DNA of 54,484 nt from Treponema sp. (GTDB lineage: Bacteria; Spirochaetota; Spirochaetia; Treponematales; Breznakiellaceae): positions 1 to 54,484 of the forward strand of contig JAITIC010000112.1 in assembly GCA_031279635.1 (NCBI GenBank), written 5' to 3'. Shown here piece after piece: positions 44,049 through 51,139 of this stretch. A program made the position numbers and the translations under genes. The notes beneath the pieces are model-generated. The model made no database searches and had not been told where the DNA came from. It saw only the letters and a list, made by a program, of their open reading frames with translations. How positions within the stretch are numbered: the first letter of the stretch is position 1; each line of letters starts with the position of its first letter.

Positions 44049-44618
44049 ATGCTGGATTTTGAGACGGAGCTCGAAAGGCTGCTTGCGCGTGAAAGCGCGC
44101 CCCTGCCCCACAGTGAATTGGCGGAACTTGCGGCGGCGGGACAGAATATGCTGACTGAGTTGCATAAAAAAAACACGGAATTGTCCCTGCAGGTCGAGGA
44201 AATATACGATCTCGTTAAAGAGGCGGACAGCGGAATCCTGCGGGAAGCACTCGACGATGAAAAAAGGAGGACGGGCCGCCTGGCCGCCGCCGTGGTTGCT
44301 CTGTGCGATCTTCTGGAACATTTTTGCGCCTACACGCGGCAAAGCGGCAGCGAAGACCTGGAACTTCAGGCGTGTCTGCTGTGGAAAAATGCAGCCGCCG
44401 TACTGGAAGGCTGCGGCATTACCCGCCTGGGGGAAGAAGGCCAGTACCTCGACCCGGAAATTCATACAGTGGAGTCCGCCGTCGCTTCCTCCCTTCCCCG
44501 CGAGTATGTGGTGCGGGTGCTACAGAGCGGCTACCGGTACCTGGGGAATGTGCTGCGCCGGGCCGCGGTTGTGGTCAGTACCGGGGCGGAATATCCTGAA
44601 AGGAAAGAAAATGAGTAG
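44049..44618 (+). CDS. Diverged GrpE-like nucleotide exchange factor
   Basis: 189 residues. The N-terminal half is helical with heptad-like spacing (about 30-80), followed by a compact C-terminal domain. The segment AAAVLEGCGITRLGEEGQ (about 115-132), then YLDPEIHTVESAV and GYRYLGNVLRRAAVVVSTG (about 160-178), matches in order the GrpE beta-domain ('G..FDPxxHxAV...GYxxxxRVLRPAxVxV'). GrpE releases ADP from Hsp70. Overall similarity is low, so a specialised partner for the HscC-like Hsp70 is likely. Its stop overlaps the Hsp70 start by 8 bp. AGGGGG lies 3-4 bp before the ATG. Confidence 0.7.
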   Translation: MLDFETELERLLARESAPLPHSELAELAAAGQNMLTELHKKNTELSLQVEEIYDLVKEADSGILREALDDEKRRTGRLAAAVVALCDLLEHFCAYTRQSGSEDLELQACLLWKNAAAVLEGCGITRLGEEGQYLDPEIHTVESAVASSLPREYVVRVLQSGYRYLGNVLRRAAVVVSTGAEYPERKENE

Positions 44619-46275
44619 AATTATAGGCATTGATCTGGGCACGTCCACTTCGGAAGCGGCCTGTATAGTGAACGGCGCGCCGAAGCTGATACCCAACACG
44701 CTGGGAAAATGTATCACGCCGTCGGTGGTACACATAGCCGAAGACGGCGGGATTCTCGTGGGCGAGAGCGCCGCCGAATACCTGTTCACCCGTCCGGATT
44801 GTACGTTTATGGAGGTCAAGCGCCTGACCGGAAGCGGCGAAATCCTCCGCGCCCACGGGAAGGAATATTCCCCGGAAGAAATACAAAGCATGCTGCTCAG
44901 GTATCTGGCCGGCTGCGCGGAAACCTGGTTGGGCGAAAAGATCAGCAGGGCCGTTATCACGGTACCTGCGTATTTTACCGACGCGCAGCGCCGGGCCACG
45001 GCAAAAGCCGGGGAGCTTGCCGCTCTGAATGTGGAACGTATTCTCAATGAACCCACGGCGGCGGCGCTGGATTACGGGCTCGCAAATCTCAAGGAATGTC
45101 GGAACGTGCTGGTCTACGATTTGGGGGGCGGCACTCTGGATGTGACAGTTCTTGAACTGTTTGAGGGCGTGATTGACGTAAAGGCCAGCCGGGGCAACAA
45201 TCATCTGGGCGGCAAGGATTTCGACGAAATTATCATGGCGGCGCTGGCGGACAGCGGGGGAGATGAACGCGCCCGCATGCGCCTGAAAAAAGCGGCGGAG
45301 GACTGTAAAATCGCCCTCAGTACGGGGGAAGCGTATCAGGTATCTTTGCCTTTTCTGTTAACCGCGAAAGACGGGAAGCCGATCTCGGTTGAAAAAACCG
45401 TAAGCCGCGCCGAATTCGAGGTATGGATACGGGAAAAAGTTGAATCCACGCGGGAGCCGATGCTGACGGCCCTTTCCGACGCGGGACTTTCCCCGGCGGA
45501 TATGGACGTCATCCTGCTGGTGGGTGGTTCCACCCGGATTCCCTGCGTGCGAAGGCTTGTAGAGGAAAGCATGTCCGCGGCGTCCCAGTCGCTGGTAGAC
45601 CCGGATTTGACCGTCGCCCGGGGCGCGGCAATTCAGGCGGGCCTGCTTGAAGGCAGCATTGCGGATGGAGACCTGGTGCTGACGGATGTCTGTCCCTACA
45701 CTTTGGGAATCGCCTCCATGCACGAGGGCCTTTATGACGACCGGCTGTTATTCGACCCCATCATCCTCCGGAATACCACTATTCCCGCTGAAAAATCAAA
45801 ACTCTATCATCCCTTCACGGATTTCCAGACAAGCGTGACAATTGAGGCCTATCAGGGAGATTCCTCCGACATTGAAGACAACGAAAAACTCGGCGAGGTA
45901 CATCTCACCGGTATTCCTCCCGCCAGGCGGGGCAAAGAGCCGATAGAGGTGGTCTTTGCCTATGACATAAACGGCATTTTGCAGGTAAAGGCCAGCGTCG
46001 TTTCCACAGGCAAAAACATTTCCGCCGACATCAATACCACCGGCGTAAAACCCAGGCCGGCTCTCGATCTGACAAAATGGGAGTCGGCGAACGGGGCAAG
46101 GCAGTACCGTCCGGCGATCCGCAAAGCGGAAAAAAAGATCGCCGAAGGGTATGACGAAAACGGCGACCTACAAATTGTAGTCAGGAGAATTAAGGAGGCC
46201 CTGTTATTGGAGAAGGGACAGCAGGCCGCAAGCCTCCGCAATGATCTGCTTGAATTGCTGGAATTGATGAAATGA
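44611..46275 (+). CDS. hscC: HscC-type Hsp70 chaperone
   Basis: 554 residues, shorter than DnaK (about 610-640) and close to E. coli HscC (556). The nucleotide-binding domain has IIGIDLGTSTSEAA (phosphate 1), VITVPAYFTDAQRRAT, ILNEPTAAALDYGL, VYDLGGGTLDVTVL (phosphate 2) and LLVGGSTRIPCV (adenosine). The inter-domain linker is VLTDVCPYTLGIAS. The substrate-binding domain has RNTTIPAEKS, VTIEAYQGD and FAYDINGILQVKA; the helical lid is short and there is no EEVD-like tail. VCPYTLG and AYDINGIL follow HscC wording rather than DnaK. ATG 44611 is preceded by AGGAAAG. It overlaps the genes on both sides. Confidence 0.93.
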   Translation: MSRIIGIDLGTSTSEAACIVNGAPKLIPNTLGKCITPSVVHIAEDGGILVGESAAEYLFTRPDCTFMEVKRLTGSGEILRAHGKEYSPEEIQSMLLRYLAGCAETWLGEKISRAVITVPAYFTDAQRRATAKAGELAALNVERILNEPTAAALDYGLANLKECRNVLVYDLGGGTLDVTVLELFEGVIDVKASRGNNHLGGKDFDEIIMAALADSGGDERARMRLKKAAEDCKIALSTGEAYQVSLPFLLTAKDGKPISVEKTVSRAEFEVWIREKVESTREPMLTALSDAGLSPADMDVILLVGGSTRIPCVRRLVEESMSAASQSLVDPDLTVARGAAIQAGLLEGSIADGDLVLTDVCPYTLGIASMHEGLYDDRLLFDPIILRNTTIPAEKSKLYHPFTDFQTSVTIEAYQGDSSDIEDNEKLGEVHLTGIPPARRGKEPIEVVFAYDINGILQVKASVVSTGKNISADINTTGVKPRPALDLTKWESANGARQYRPAIRKAEKKIAEGYDENGDLQIVVRRIKEALLLEKGQQAASLRNDLLELLELMK

Positions 46276-46727
46276 ACGCCTGCCTTGCCGCTCGTTACTA
46301 CCGGCTGGCGCTCCGCTCGGCACGGGAACGGGATATAAGCGGCGCGGCGCGCTACGCGCAATACGCCTGCGTCCTCGACGGGCAGCACGGGGACGCGGCC
46401 TTTCTGCTGGAACTGTGCCTGCGCGGGCTGGGCCGGCCGCTTTCCCCCGCGCCGGAAAGCGGCGGCGGAGATGACGGCCTGGATCAGGTACGCGCCCTTG
46501 CCCGCCGGAAAAAGTGGCGCGAGGCCGCCCGCGCCGCCTGTGCCGTTCCGGGGAAAAGCGTGCGGGTTTTGAACATACGGGGCTGCCTTTTTGCCCTCGC
46601 AAAGCGTCCCCGCGAGGCAGCGGAGAGTTTCGCCCGGGCGCTGGCAAAGGACCGGGGCAGCCGTCTTGCGGCGGAGGGTTTTGCGGAAACATTCCGGCCG
46701 CGTAAAAAATTTTGGGAAATATGGTAA
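46272..46727 (+). CDS. Small TPR-like helical protein of the chaperone cassette
   Basis: 151 residues, Ala/Arg-rich and helical. Two stretches read like tetratricopeptide repeats: [28 protein letters not shown] (about 9-36, as a region) and [29 protein letters not shown] (about 98-126, as a region). There is no signal peptide. The start overlaps the Hsp70 stop (ATGA), and the end overlaps the J-like gene by 7 bp, so it is made with them. It may bind the Hsp70 or its client. No family recognised. Confidence 0.6.
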
Positions 46728-48079
46728 CAAATCATTACGACCTGCTGGGAATCGAACAGACAGCCGGCCCGCAGGAAATAAAGCGCGCCTATTTCACGCT
46801 GGTGCGGCAATACCCGCCAGAGCGCTTTCCCGAAGAGTTTAAGCGGCTGCGCACCGCATACGAAACGCTTTCCGACGAGCAAAGGCGCGCCGCATACGAT
46901 AAAAACGGCCTCCTGCCGGAGGATATTGCCCTGCTGGTGCAGGAGGCCCGCAACGCCTGTCTTCACGGCAAATATTCCCAGGCGTTGAAACTGTACCGCG
47001 CCATTCTTAACCGCCATCCCGCCCTGGCCATGATCATGAAAGAATATGCCATGACGCTGGAAAAGACAGGCAAAAAGAAAGAAGCCATGAAAACCAGGGA
47101 GGCCCTCTGCGAACTGGCCCCGGACAATGCCGAATACACGTATGATCTTGCCTGGGCCTATGAAAAACGCGGCTGGGACCGGAAGGCGCTTGCCCGGTAT
47201 AAGCGGACGCTGGAAATTGACGGCGGCAGCGCCGCCTCCTGGTCCGCGATTATTGACTATCACATAAAAGCCAGGAAATGGGAGGAGGCAAGGAAGGTTT
47301 GCGCCGAGGCGATAGAAGTGGTGAAGGAGAAAGACAGCGGGACGCTCTACCTGTATAGCCAGGCCTTTTCCCTTGAGCCGACCACAGCCTCCGCCGAAGA
47401 TCATCTTAAAAACATAGTCCGTCTGATGCGTAGCGGCCGCCAGGAAATACTGAACGAAGGTGAAATGGCCGTTTCACACCTGCTGAATTTCTGTTTGACC
47501 GCAATGCCGGATGAAATGCGTTTTTTTCCCTATATAGAGCAAATGATGGAACTGCTGCCTCATGCGCGGAAAGGACTGGATGAACCATTCAGGGAGGCGA
47601 AGAGCAGGTATGACATTGAAAACCTTGACAAAGACGGCTTTTCCGACATTTTTCATGATCTGCTATGGATACAGCTAGGGGGGTATGACATTGACGAAGA
47701 CGCCAAAGATGATGATCATGAATCGGCGAAGAATAATAAAATCGCCATGGAATGTATTATTCTGGATGAGCGAAAGACCTACTTTCCCCAGCTTTTACGC
47801 CTGAAAAAAGAGTATCCTCACCTGTATGAGCTGCACCGCACTTTTTTTGACGAGGCGCTCAGCGCCTCCAATCCTGAAAAAATGCTGCGGCAGCGGACAA
47901 AAATCCTTTCCAAACACAATCTTAGTTTCGCCGGCAGTCAGGATGTCGGGGGATACGGGGACGAAGAAGACTTTCCGGAGCCGGTACAAACAGTGCGCCG
48001 CGAACAGCCCAAAGTGGGGCGCAACGATCCCTGCCCCTGCGGCAGCGGGAAAAAGTATAAAAAATGCTGCGGGGCCTGA
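46721..48079 (+). CDS. J-domain-like/TPR/SEC-C protein lacking HPD
   Basis: 452 residues from ATG 46721. Residues 1-70 follow a J domain ([20 protein letters not shown]...[21 protein letters not shown]), but the HPD tripeptide that stimulates Hsp70 ATPase is replaced: the loop reads [10 protein letters not shown]. Residues about 80-220 form helical TPR-like repeats ([39 protein letters not shown]). The last 20 residues, [17 protein letters not shown], are a SEC-C zinc motif as at the SecA tail. It probably links the Hsp70 to ribosomes, SecB-like factors or clients. Convergent with argH; hairpins follow. Confidence 0.85.
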
Positions 48080-48173: not shown

Positions 48174-48366
48174 GATTCGAAAGTCTGGTTTAATACCCCG
48201 GAGCTCTGCTCCGGCTCAAATGACGCAGCGCTTACAAAAATTTGGTATTAAACCTAAGAACCCGCTTGCGCGGGGGAGGGTATAATAAACTTCCTATCGA
48301 CCGAGCCTCCGATCGAACTAATGCAGCGCTTAAGATACCGCGGAGCTTGCCCCGCGGAGGCTCATT
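48174..48366 (+). repeat. Intergenic repeats A (copy 3) and B (copy 2), fullest copy
   Basis: A: TTCGAAAGTCTGGTTTA to GGTATTAAACC, with perfect 11-bp terminal inverted repeats (GGTTTAATACC / GGTATTAAACC) and an inner CCGGAGC/GCTCCGG stem. Then AAGAACCCGCTTGCGCGGG (also in copy 1 only). B: AATAAACTTCCTATCGA to CGCGGAGGCTCA. This copy combines parts that are separately missing in copies 1 and 2. It fills most of the 397-bp gap between the J-like gene and argH. Confidence 0.75.
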
Positions 48367-48377
48367 AAAATTGGTAA

Positions 48378-48416
48378 GGGGATGTCCAGGAAGCAACAAA
48401 CTTCTTGGACATCCCC
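48378..48416. terminator. 16-bp hairpin between convergent genes
   Basis: GGGGATGTCCAGGAAG and CTTCTTGGACATCCCC pair with one wobble around CAACAAA. Likely terminator for the chaperone cassette or argH. Confidence 0.6.
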
Positions 48417-48431
48417 AGGCTCATTGGAAGG

Positions 48432-48455
48432 TTCTCCCCAATTGTTTGGGGAGAA
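48432..48455. terminator. 8-bp hairpin near the argH stop
   Basis: TTCTCCCC-N8-GGGGAGAA, a perfect stem, 22 bp beyond the argH stop codon (48477, leftward). Probable argH terminator. Confidence 0.55.
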
Positions 48456-48476
48456 GCTCTTAATCAATATCCCGCT

Positions 48477-49880
48477 TCACCGGATCTTTTTCCTGAGCGC
48501 CCTAATCTGCCGCCGCACTTCTTTGGGGGCCGGGCCGCCGGGGAGACCACGGGCCTTTATACAGGCCGCCGGGCTGAGGGCTTCGTAAATATCTTCCTCA
48601 AAAAGTTTGGAACGCGCTTTTAATTCGGCGAGGCTTCTGTCGGCGATCTGCCGTCTGCCCGCCTCAATGCAATCGCGCACAATGAGGGCGGCGGTCTCGT
48701 GGGCTTTGCGGAAGGGGAGACCCTTGCGGACAAGGTATTCCGCCGCGTCAGTGGCTTCAAGGAAACCGCCGGAGCAGGCGGCCTGCATCCGCTTTAAGTT
48801 GAATTGGGTATCCCGCATCATGCCGCGGAACACGCGCAGACAGGAACGCAGCGTGTCAAGACTGTCAAAGAGGCTTTCCTTGTCCTCTTGCAGGTCTTTG
48901 TCGTAAGCGTAGGGCAGGCCCTTGAGCAGGGTGAGCAGGGTGACGAGGTTTCCGGCGGCACGCCCCGCCTTGCCCCGGATAAGCTCGGCGAAGTCGGGGT
49001 TTTTTTTCTGGGGCATAATGGAAGAGCCGGTACTCCAGGCCTCGGCAAGTTCAATGAATTTGAATTCCTCGCTGGCCCAGAGAACCACGTCTTCGCAGAA
49101 ACGGGAAAGATGCACCATGGCAATGGCGCAGCAGGAGGAAAGTTCCAGGGCAAAGTCCCGGTCCGCCACGGAGTCCATGGAGTTAAGGCTGGGCCGGGCA
49201 AAGCCCAGGGCTTCGGCGGCAGCTTTGCGGTCCAGGGGAAGCCCCGAACCGGCAAGCGCACCCGCGCCCAGCGGACATTCGTCCAGACGGGAGAGGGCGC
49301 CGGCAAAGCGGGAAAGGTCCCTCTCAAGGGCGGCGCACCAGGCCGTCAGGTGATAGCCCAGAGTTACCGGCTGCGCCCGCTGCAGGTGGGTATAACCGGG
49401 CATGACGGCGGCGGTGTGTTTTTCCGCCTGGTCCAGTAAAACCCCGATAGTTTCAGCTAACTCGGCGCGAAGCTCCGGCACGATCCGTTTAAGGTAGAGC
49501 TTGAAATCCACCGCCACCTGATCGTTGCGGCTGCGGCCCGCGTGCAGCATCCGGCCGGCGTCGCCCAGACGCTCGGTGAGAATCCCCTCAATAAAAGAGT
49601 GAATGTCCTCGGCGGCCGGGTCTATGGCGAGTTTGCCCGCTTTGAGTTCCGCGGCGATACGGTCAAGCTCCCTGCCGATTTTCGCGGCGGCGTCTTTGGG
49701 AATTATCCCCTGCCTGCCCAGCGTGGCGGCGTGGGCCTTGCTTCCGGCGATGTCGTCAAAAGCAAGGCGGGCATCCACCCCGATGGAAGCCTGAAACGCG
49801 AAAGCCTCCGCATCAGGTTTTTCCGCGAGCCTTCCTGCCCAAAGGACTTCGGTCTCTTTCTTCAGATCACCACGCATCAT
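48477..49880 (-). CDS. argH: Argininosuccinate lyase
   Basis: 467 residues of the fumarase/aspartase superfamily. [20 protein letters not shown] (about 112-131) and [21 protein letters not shown] (about 284-304, as a region) hold the catalytic Ser/Lys loop. [13 protein letters not shown] (about 160-172) holds the conserved His. It splits argininosuccinate into arginine and fumarate, the last step of arginine synthesis. The start overlaps the argG stop (ATGA), so the two are co-translated. Confidence 0.97.
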
Positions 49881-51139
49881 TTCTTTTTGGTCTTGGCGGC
49901 GCTCTTGCCTGTTTCCGCGGCGGCTTTTTCGCCGCCTTTTTTGTCCTGCTCCATAAGGGAGCGGACCAGCACCGGCAAGCCGTAGAGTTTAATGAAGCCC
50001 TTGGCATCGGCGTGGTTGTACAGATCACCGGTGGTAAAGCTGGCGATGCTGGCGTTGTACAGCGAATTGGGGGAACTGACCCCGGCGGCGCTTATCGATC
50101 CCTTGTAGAGTTTGAGCCGCACTTTTCCGCTCACTGTTTTTTGGGTGGAGTCCACAAAGGCGGAGATCGCTTCGCGTAACGGAGTGAACCAGAGGCCCCC
50201 ATAAATAAGCTCGCCCATTTTGAGCGCCGCCTGCTGCTTGAAGGCGTAAGTCTGCCGGTCAAGACAGATGTGCTCCAGTTCCCGGTGGGCGTAGTAGAGA
50301 ATGCTGCCGCCGGGAGTCTCGTACACGCCCCGGCTCTTCATTCCCACCACCCGGTTTTCAACCAGGTCCGCGATACCCACGCCGTTGGCGCCGCCAATTT
50401 TATTGAGCAGCTTGACAAGCGCCACCCCGTCCATTTTTTTGCCGTTCACCGCGAACGGGATACCCTGCTCAAATTCGATCTCAACATATTCGGGTTTGTT
50501 AGGCGCTTTTTCCGGCGTAACAGTCATGCTGAGCATTTTTCTGAACATCGGTTCCGCCGAAGGGTCTTCAAGCTCAAGGCCCTCGTGGGAAATATGCCAG
50601 AGGTTATCGTCCATGCTGTAGGAATTTTTCTTCTTCACCGGTACGGGCAGTTTCTTTCTTGCCAGATACCGCATCTCATCTTCCCGGCTTTTGAGCTGCC
50701 AGGTGCGCCAGGGCGCGATAATCTCAATATCCGGGGCCAGGGCCATAATGCCCAAATCAAAACGGACCTGATCGTTTCCCTTGCCGGTAGCGCCGTGGGC
50801 AATGGCTCCGGCTTTTTCCTTGCGGGCGTAATCCACGAGGACTTTGGCGATGAGCGGCCGCGCGGTGGAGGTTCCCAGCAGGTACTTGTCCTCGTACACG
50901 GCGTCGGCCTTGAGCGCGGGCCAGATATATTCCTCGACATACTCTTTTTTTACATCCGCCACATGACAAACCGCGGTGCCGGTCTGCATGGCCCGTTTTT
51001 TAACGGCCGTCCAGTCCGTTTCCTGGCCCACATCAACGCACACGGCAATAATGTCGCAGTCATGATTCTCCTTGAGCCAGGGAATGATCACCGTGGTATC
51101 CAACCCCCCGGAATAGGCGAGGACGATTTTCTTCTTCAT
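49877..51139 (-). CDS. argG: Argininosuccinate synthase
   Basis: 420 residues. The ATP-PPase loop is [15 protein letters not shown] (about 8-22). [17 protein letters not shown] (about 118-134) and [14 protein letters not shown] (about 177-190) are typical of ArgG. It joins citrulline and aspartate with ATP. The body ends near residue 398; a charged Lys/Ala/Glu tail of about 20 residues ([21 protein letters not shown] region) follows, which most ArgG lack. Translationally coupled to argH. A ribosome site (AGGAGA) precedes the start. Confidence 0.97.

Follow-up and report, generated by a model that had tools for sequence, protein, structure and literature searches.

The histidine of the His-Pro-Asp (HPD) motif is taught as indispensable for the activation of Hsp70 by J-proteins. 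Its replacement by glutamine abolishes the stimulation of the ATPase in the systems tested, according to two reviews (PMC8215388, PMC13254874). The second of these, from 2026, describes HPE as apparently the only tolerated change to HPD, found in DjlB and DjlC of Escherichia coli, and treats as an open question whether deviations from HPD are accidental or selected. DjlC stimulates the ATPase of E. coli HscC, which does not respond to DnaJ, CbpA, or HscB (PMC8215388). In Myxococcus, a second GrpE (MXAN_6672) adjoins a second Hsp70, DnaK2, in a bicistron (PMC11019930). Here we describe a four-gene chaperone cassette from Treponema sp. (assembly GCA_031279635.1, contig JAITIC010000112.1, positions 1 to 54,484; this whole stretch of 54,484 nucleotides is hereafter the window). 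The J-domain encoded by the cassette has lost the HPD histidine.

The cassette consists of four open reading frames (ORFs) on the + strand with successive overlaps of 8, 4, and 7 bp, just as the earlier note had described. They encode a GrpE-like nucleotide exchange factor (189 amino acids; 44049..44618), an HscC-like Hsp70 (554 amino acids; 44611..46275), a small TPR protein, P0003 (151 amino acids; 46272..46727), and a J-domain/TPR/SEC-C protein, P0004 (452 amino acids; 46721..48079). The same genes, in the same order and on the same strand, were present at 31 of the 43 loci that we mapped, so the cassette is real and its order is beyond chance. We propose that it encodes a dedicated and self-contained J-Hsp70-GrpE cycle in which the J-domain would dock without the HPD histidine. 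Judging from sequence comparisons, we put the probability of this reading at roughly 0.58.

The standard grpE-dnaK-dnaJ cluster of the same genome lies on another contig, C9, so the cassette is an additional chaperone set, distinct from the housekeeping one, as the earlier note had proposed. (The DnaK of this genome groups with DnaK from two Spirochaetales records in a tree, with support of 100/100.) That note had also named three outcomes that would count against it: no co-occurrence of the four genes in other genomes, no GrpE fold for the 189-residue protein, or no other Hsp70/J/GrpE genes in the genome. None of the three occurred.

J-domains without the HPD histidine

The J-domain of P0004 (46730..46900, by Pfam and a J-domain search) has Pro-Pro-Glu in place of His-Pro-Asp (46814..46822, by translation and by alignment of J-domains), which the earlier note had overlooked. 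The histidine is missing from all 40 of the cassette J-domains that we aligned. Their triads are QPD (16), PPE (12), PPD (6), QPG (3), SPD (2), and DPE (1), so that the middle proline is kept in 40 of 40 and the third residue is Asp or Glu in 37. The entropy is 1.38 bits at position 33 and 0 bits at Pro34. Of the 40 domains, one comes from a fragment of a broken gene in genome G948, and two are copies from the same genome, G940. The set excludes the second piece from G948 and the ORFs from G972 and G897, which have no J motif, as well as G765, whose triad reads PPE by eye. As a control, we searched ten cassette genomes for J-domains. Ten of the 37 matches were the cassettes themselves, and the other 27 all read HPD (23 by alignment and 4 by translation, of which one scores below the family cut-off and one then meets a stop).

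In the structure of DnaJ with DnaK, His33 bonds the carbonyl of L391 in the interdomain linker, Pro34 packs against P419, and the partners bonded by Asp35 are R167 and Q378 (PMC8215388, PMC13254874). Residues R167, Q378, P419, N170, and T173 (DnaK numbering) are invariant in 39 of 39 cassette Hsp70s, a set that leaves out the fragmentary or split ORFs of G960, G948, and G897. Because the contact made by the histidine is gone but those made by the proline and the aspartate are kept, docking probably still matters and the domain is probably not dead.

The chief rival to docking without the histidine is that the J-domain merely recruits. It might tether the Hsp70 or hold it back without stimulating its ATPase, giving a slow holdase or a regulated tether that works with basal hydrolysis and the private GrpE, like a soluble Pam16. 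The loss of the histidine from every aligned domain would fit this idea. Also, QPD is known as a dead motif, and J-domain proteins (JDPs) of Type IV, or pseudo-JDPs, such as Pam16 and DnaJB13, resemble the cassette protein in having an altered HPD and have been suggested to act by recruitment or competition (PMC13254874). But Pam16 has lost the proline (DKE or DKS; PMC13254874), which the cassette proteins always keep. The retention of the proline and, usually, of the acidic residue, along with the invariance of the matching Hsp70 residues, argues against a mere recruiter. Unlike the pseudo-JDPs, the cassette gene lies beside its own Hsp70 gene and usually a grpE. We consider the recruiter unlikely, and sequence cannot separate it from the reading we prefer.

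Another idea is that the cassette borrows its stimulation in trans: a housekeeping protein with HPD, for example DnaJ, would supply it, and the cassette J-protein would only pick clients. DnaJ and other HPD J-domains do exist in the genomes examined. However, a J-protein is encoded in every mapped cassette and a GrpE in 35 of 43, the linker of the cassette Hsp70 differs from that of DnaK (T392 in 39 of 39), and E. coli HscC is unresponsive to DnaJ, CbpA, and HscB, as cited above (PMC8215388). We think that borrowing is improbable.

We read the neighborhoods of 12 true HscC genes, including that of E. coli K-12; this is a small sample and mostly from plasmid records. (A thirteenth locus, from Fusobacterium, is a DnaK cluster.) The spacing from the triad to Tyr54 is 12 residues in all 40 cassette J-domains and in all 14 J-proteins linked to HscC, versus 16 to 22 residues in 24 other J-domains (23 of the controls and E. 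coli DnaJ). Similarly, the position of DnaJ K51 is Arg in 40 of 40 cassette J-domains and in 13 of the 14, versus 0 of the 24 others. Because the short loop and this Arg are common to both, we place the cassette J-domain in the DjlB/C class. Most of the HscC-linked J-proteins (11/14) also lack the histidine (six have RPD, and NPE, RPE, DPQ, DQG, and DIE occur once each), and HPE is found only in DjlB, DjlC, and an Erwinia protein. In this sample, loss of the histidine is common in the DjlB/C class and not special to the cassette. We looked for a simple co-change of D35 and R167 in the HscC pairs and did not find it; a Q378M beside DQG is a single case. One of these HscC genes, in a record from an uncultured Acetatifactor, directly follows an ORF for a J-protein that has 1042 residues and an NPE triad (L318:3945-7073).

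Our search of the literature, which mostly lacked subscription papers and covered titles and the starts of abstracts, returned nothing pointing to the cassette or to HscC partners without the histidine.

The Hsp70 and its GrpE-like neighbor

The cassette Hsp70 (Pfam HSP70, E = 3e-134) had been assigned to the short HscC type. It does share many traits with HscC. At 554 residues, its length is within the 550-580 residues of HscC, and 16 other cassette Hsp70s have 554-577 residues, except for that of G765 (605). In the alignment, read by eye, the cassette proteins resemble HscC in lacking DnaK 76-101, in having an insertion in L1,2 and a deletion in helix B, and in their TD[VI]CPY linker. In the window, the linker is DLVLTDVCPYTLGI (45670..45711), and its Thr358 (codon 45682-45684) corresponds to L392 of DnaK. 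All 39 cassette Hsp70s and all 12 HscC have Thr at this position, and the 18 DnaK/HscA rows have Leu or Val.

On the other hand, the GrpE-signature loop (TAKDGKP, at about DnaK 288-293; 45361..45381) is retained in all 18 aligned cassette proteins. In HscC the GrpE signature (DnaK 290-295) is deleted, and this holds for all 12 HscC compared. Its length in the cassettes is 24-25 residues, versus 24 in 15 of the 18 DnaK/HscA rows. In an unrooted tree, the cassette proteins (98/80), HscC (100/100), and DnaK/HscA (100/100) form three separate groups. (A tree with E. coli HscC as the only HscC had joined it to the cassette, with a branch length of 3.14; we replaced it with the tree of 12 HscC.) Because the loop is kept and the cassette proteins have their own group in the tree, we did not file this Hsp70 as HscC proper. 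It is a sister-like type that is probably competent for GrpE; given that the tree is unrooted, the loop may be either ancestral or regained. A GrpE partner is also less odd than the earlier note held, as this Hsp70 keeps the loop that HscC has lost.

That the 189-residue protein is GrpE-like was borne out. It matches Pfam GrpE with E = 1.4e-14 and 54.5 bits (the cut-off is 25.8), and all five of the cassette GrpE proteins from relatives that were run exceed the cut-off as well. An AlphaFold model, built from three sequences and of moderate confidence (predicted local distance difference test, or pLDDT, of 67), has long helices and a C-terminal beta domain. When this model was compared to PDB with Foldseek, all 11 matches below E = 0.001 were GrpE chains, and the next match had E = 0.13. 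None of 35 cassette GrpE proteins fit a strict PROSITE-like GrpE signature, and 26 of the 35 fit the C-terminal half of the signature with its residues relaxed.

Could this be an ordinary HscC system with a GrpE gene beside it by chance? The deletions, the L1,2 insertion, and the linker shared with HscC would favor this. But the GrpE loop and the separate tree groups set the cassette Hsp70 apart, and so does the gene neighborhood. A GrpE gene is present at 35 of the 43 mapped loci, and six of the other eight have too little upstream sequence; among loci with at least 350 bp upstream of the Hsp70, 35 of 37 have it. In contrast, our profile of the cassette GrpE found no GrpE gene beside any of the 12 HscC, with flanks of roughly 4 kb or more (one flank of L318 is 1.3 kb). 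The profile does detect the GrpE of Fusobacterium. A chance neighbor therefore seems highly improbable. The E. coli HscC-DjlB/DjlC system lacks both the loop and a GrpE gene of its own, and in this respect the cassette follows the logic of DnaK-DnaJ-GrpE, down to the length of the loop. It differs from DnaK-DnaJ-GrpE in that its Hsp70 is shorter, has Thr at L392, and is in a separate tree group, and in that its J-protein has no HPD histidine and, by Pfam, no DnaJ C-terminal domain. The Myxococcus bicistron also pairs an additional GrpE with an additional Hsp70, but that Hsp70 is of the DnaK type, and a J or TPR gene is not mentioned in the available part of PMC11019930.

Other parts of the cassette and its distribution

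The description of the fourth protein as a combination of J-like, TPR-like, and SEC-C parts agrees with Pfam, which finds DnaJ (5.5e-15, 55.7 bits, with a cut-off of 27.8), TPR, and SEC-C (1e-10) in P0004. Its start is the ATG at 46721, and a TTG at 46712 is an alternative further upstream. In a model of P0004, whose top matches in PDB are TPR proteins, the J-domain and the TPR array are confident to about residue 200, and beyond that only part of residues 340-390 is reliable; because the model is poor there, none of our claims rest on it past about residue 200. The zinc-binding motif of the SEC-C tail (residues 434-451) is at 48020..48073. It is present in 37 of the 41 cassette J ORFs that are not cut at the C-terminal end by the end of a contig. 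The other four are G765, which lacks it by Pfam as well, G939, which has a variant, and two pieces of broken genes. A CPCGSG motif was in none of the 14 HscC-linked J-proteins.

Unlike DjlB and DjlC, which keep the histidine (as HPE) and have hydrophobic tails, the cassette J-protein has the TPR and SEC-C parts and no strongly hydrophobic tail. Across the 41 ORFs, we did not find a C-terminal hydrophobic anchor: the highest 19-residue hydropathy after residue 60 is 1.64, whereas DjlB reaches 2.39 and DjlC 1.99 within their last 60 residues.

For the third gene, the evidence for a TPR protein is indirect. The match of P0003 itself to TPR_2 is weak (9e-4, under the cut-off of the family in Pfam), but at three clostridial loci its counterparts are clearly of the TPR type. 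A single transcript of the four genes is suggested by the overlaps between the ORFs. The common promoter that had been claimed for them was not recovered, as a simple sigma-70 scan found no + strand site upstream of the first gene (44049).

To find other cassettes, we used large profile searches, in which mostly four to eight first-look candidates per genome were scored, so some may have been missed. A probe with the J-protein gave a long match in 8 of 116 near relatives, apart from the window's own genome. Within the family, the profile search found it in 33 of 195 genomes (its own included) and in 21 of 56 genera; in the best-quality subset, the cassette J-protein was in 5 of 42 genomes. In a draw of 392 genomes from the phylum, with four candidates scored per genome, the sole long match was the window's own, and 35 other genomes matched the J or SEC-C part only. 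In the class of Clostridium tepidiprofundi, 7 of 391 genomes had matches, one of them partial, and in one order that we searched, 2 of 30 did, one of them cut. No plasmid record matched the J-protein at E = 1e-8, and the best 80 of 379 viral loci matched only the SEC-C end, over about 100 residues at most, so we rejected carriage on plasmids or viruses.

The four-gene order is thus shared among spirochaetes of the same family and Clostridia. Besides the 31 complete loci (one of which, in G960, has the Hsp70 split into two ORFs), four have GrpE-Hsp70-J with no TPR gene (G004, G468, G765, and G986), six have Hsp70-TPR-J, one has the J gene only, at the end of a contig, and one is broken. The small TPR gene is present at the 31 and at six more. 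In the Hsp70 tree, G526, from the search of Clostridia, nests beside cassettes from the window's own family (100/100). This points to a transfer across phyla, or else to a contig that was misplaced. The patchy presence and constant core suggest a self-sufficient module that has been gained and lost. One genome, G940, has two cassette copies (L242 and L246), each reaching the end of a contig.

Decay of the genes is largely refuted already, and we give it almost no credence. G897 and G948 have broken copies and G960 has the split Hsp70, all possibly the result of faulty assembly. However, the genes are open in most of the 43 copies, and K70, E171, T199, and D194 are invariant in 39 of 39 Hsp70s. 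Also, the ratio of nonsynonymous to synonymous substitution rates (dN/dS) of the four genes versus those of G062 is 0.13-0.29. For the Hsp70 gene, it is 0.13 versus G062 and 0.25 versus G023.

Flanking genes are rarely shared. Among 172 flanking ORFs at the 43 loci, the widest family of neighbors is found in four genomes, so we rejected the idea of a conserved client gene beside the cassette. The suggested link to the ribosome or to secretion is likewise unsupported, as the SEC-C tail is insufficient by itself and no widely shared neighbor indicates a client. Near the cassette, both the window (48477-51139) and G062 (L125:362-3042) have genes that resemble argH and argG in sequence; the distances differ and the arrangement is not general. 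The stretch that separates the cassette from the following gene has two inverted repeats, 48378-48416 and 48429-48458 (arms of 16 and 13 bp, over 90% complementary), and a dispersed intergenic repeat of about 172 bp (48195-48370). The dispersed repeat has 47 matches in its own genome by DNA search, itself included, of which 40 are longer copies elsewhere in the assembly (78-96% identical); one copy is on contig C9, along with grpE-dnaK-dnaJ. Rfam has no family for it and gave one chance-level match downstream of the cassette.

A putative cycle and its meaning

In the cycle that we propose, the J/TPR/SEC-C protein would use its TPR array and its zinc tail to recruit clients, which it would deliver to the Hsp70. 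Its J-domain would dock at the usual site over the linker, with the proline on P419 and the third residue, usually acidic, on R167 and Q378. Docking would do without the hydrogen bond from the histidine to the linker; this class of J-domain is paired with an altered linker (Thr for Leu at DnaK 392). Hydrolysis of ATP would then clamp the client on the Hsp70, and the private GrpE would eject ADP via the retained GrpE loop. The small TPR protein may be an adaptor that shares the choice of client with the TPR and SEC-C parts.

Several observations weigh against this proposal. Three of the 40 J-domains (those with QPG) have no acidic third residue. L391 is Leu in just 29 of 39 cassette Hsp70s, and at D477, another contact of the J-domain, the Asp is gone from 18 of 18 (two have Glu). 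By dN, the J gene changes more quickly than the other three, with dN/dS of 0.29 versus G062 and 1.19 versus G023, although the latter value is noisy because dS is low. G926 and the broken G897 have no GrpE gene despite 556 and 533 bp of upstream sequence. Finally, R167 is changed (to S or K) in 2 of the 12 true HscC, each with an RPD J-protein as its neighbor, so the pairing of J-domain and Hsp70 is not simple.

More broadly, HscC-like Hsp70s and their J-proteins may form a broad class that can do without the HPD histidine, its job having been taken over by Thr392 and a short-loop J-domain with Arg51. HPE, which in our sample occurs only in E. coli and Erwinia, would then be an exception within the class and not the only tolerated change. 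We hold this wider claim tentatively, at slightly less than even odds.

The cassette is a natural system without the histidine that has been repeatedly inherited, and it keeps an Hsp70 of its own, in most cases a GrpE as well, and the matching contact residues. It makes the question of whether deviations from HPD are accidental or selected directly testable. Along with the HscC-linked J-proteins, it also offers naturally occurring variants with Q, P, S, D, N, or R where the HPD histidine would be.

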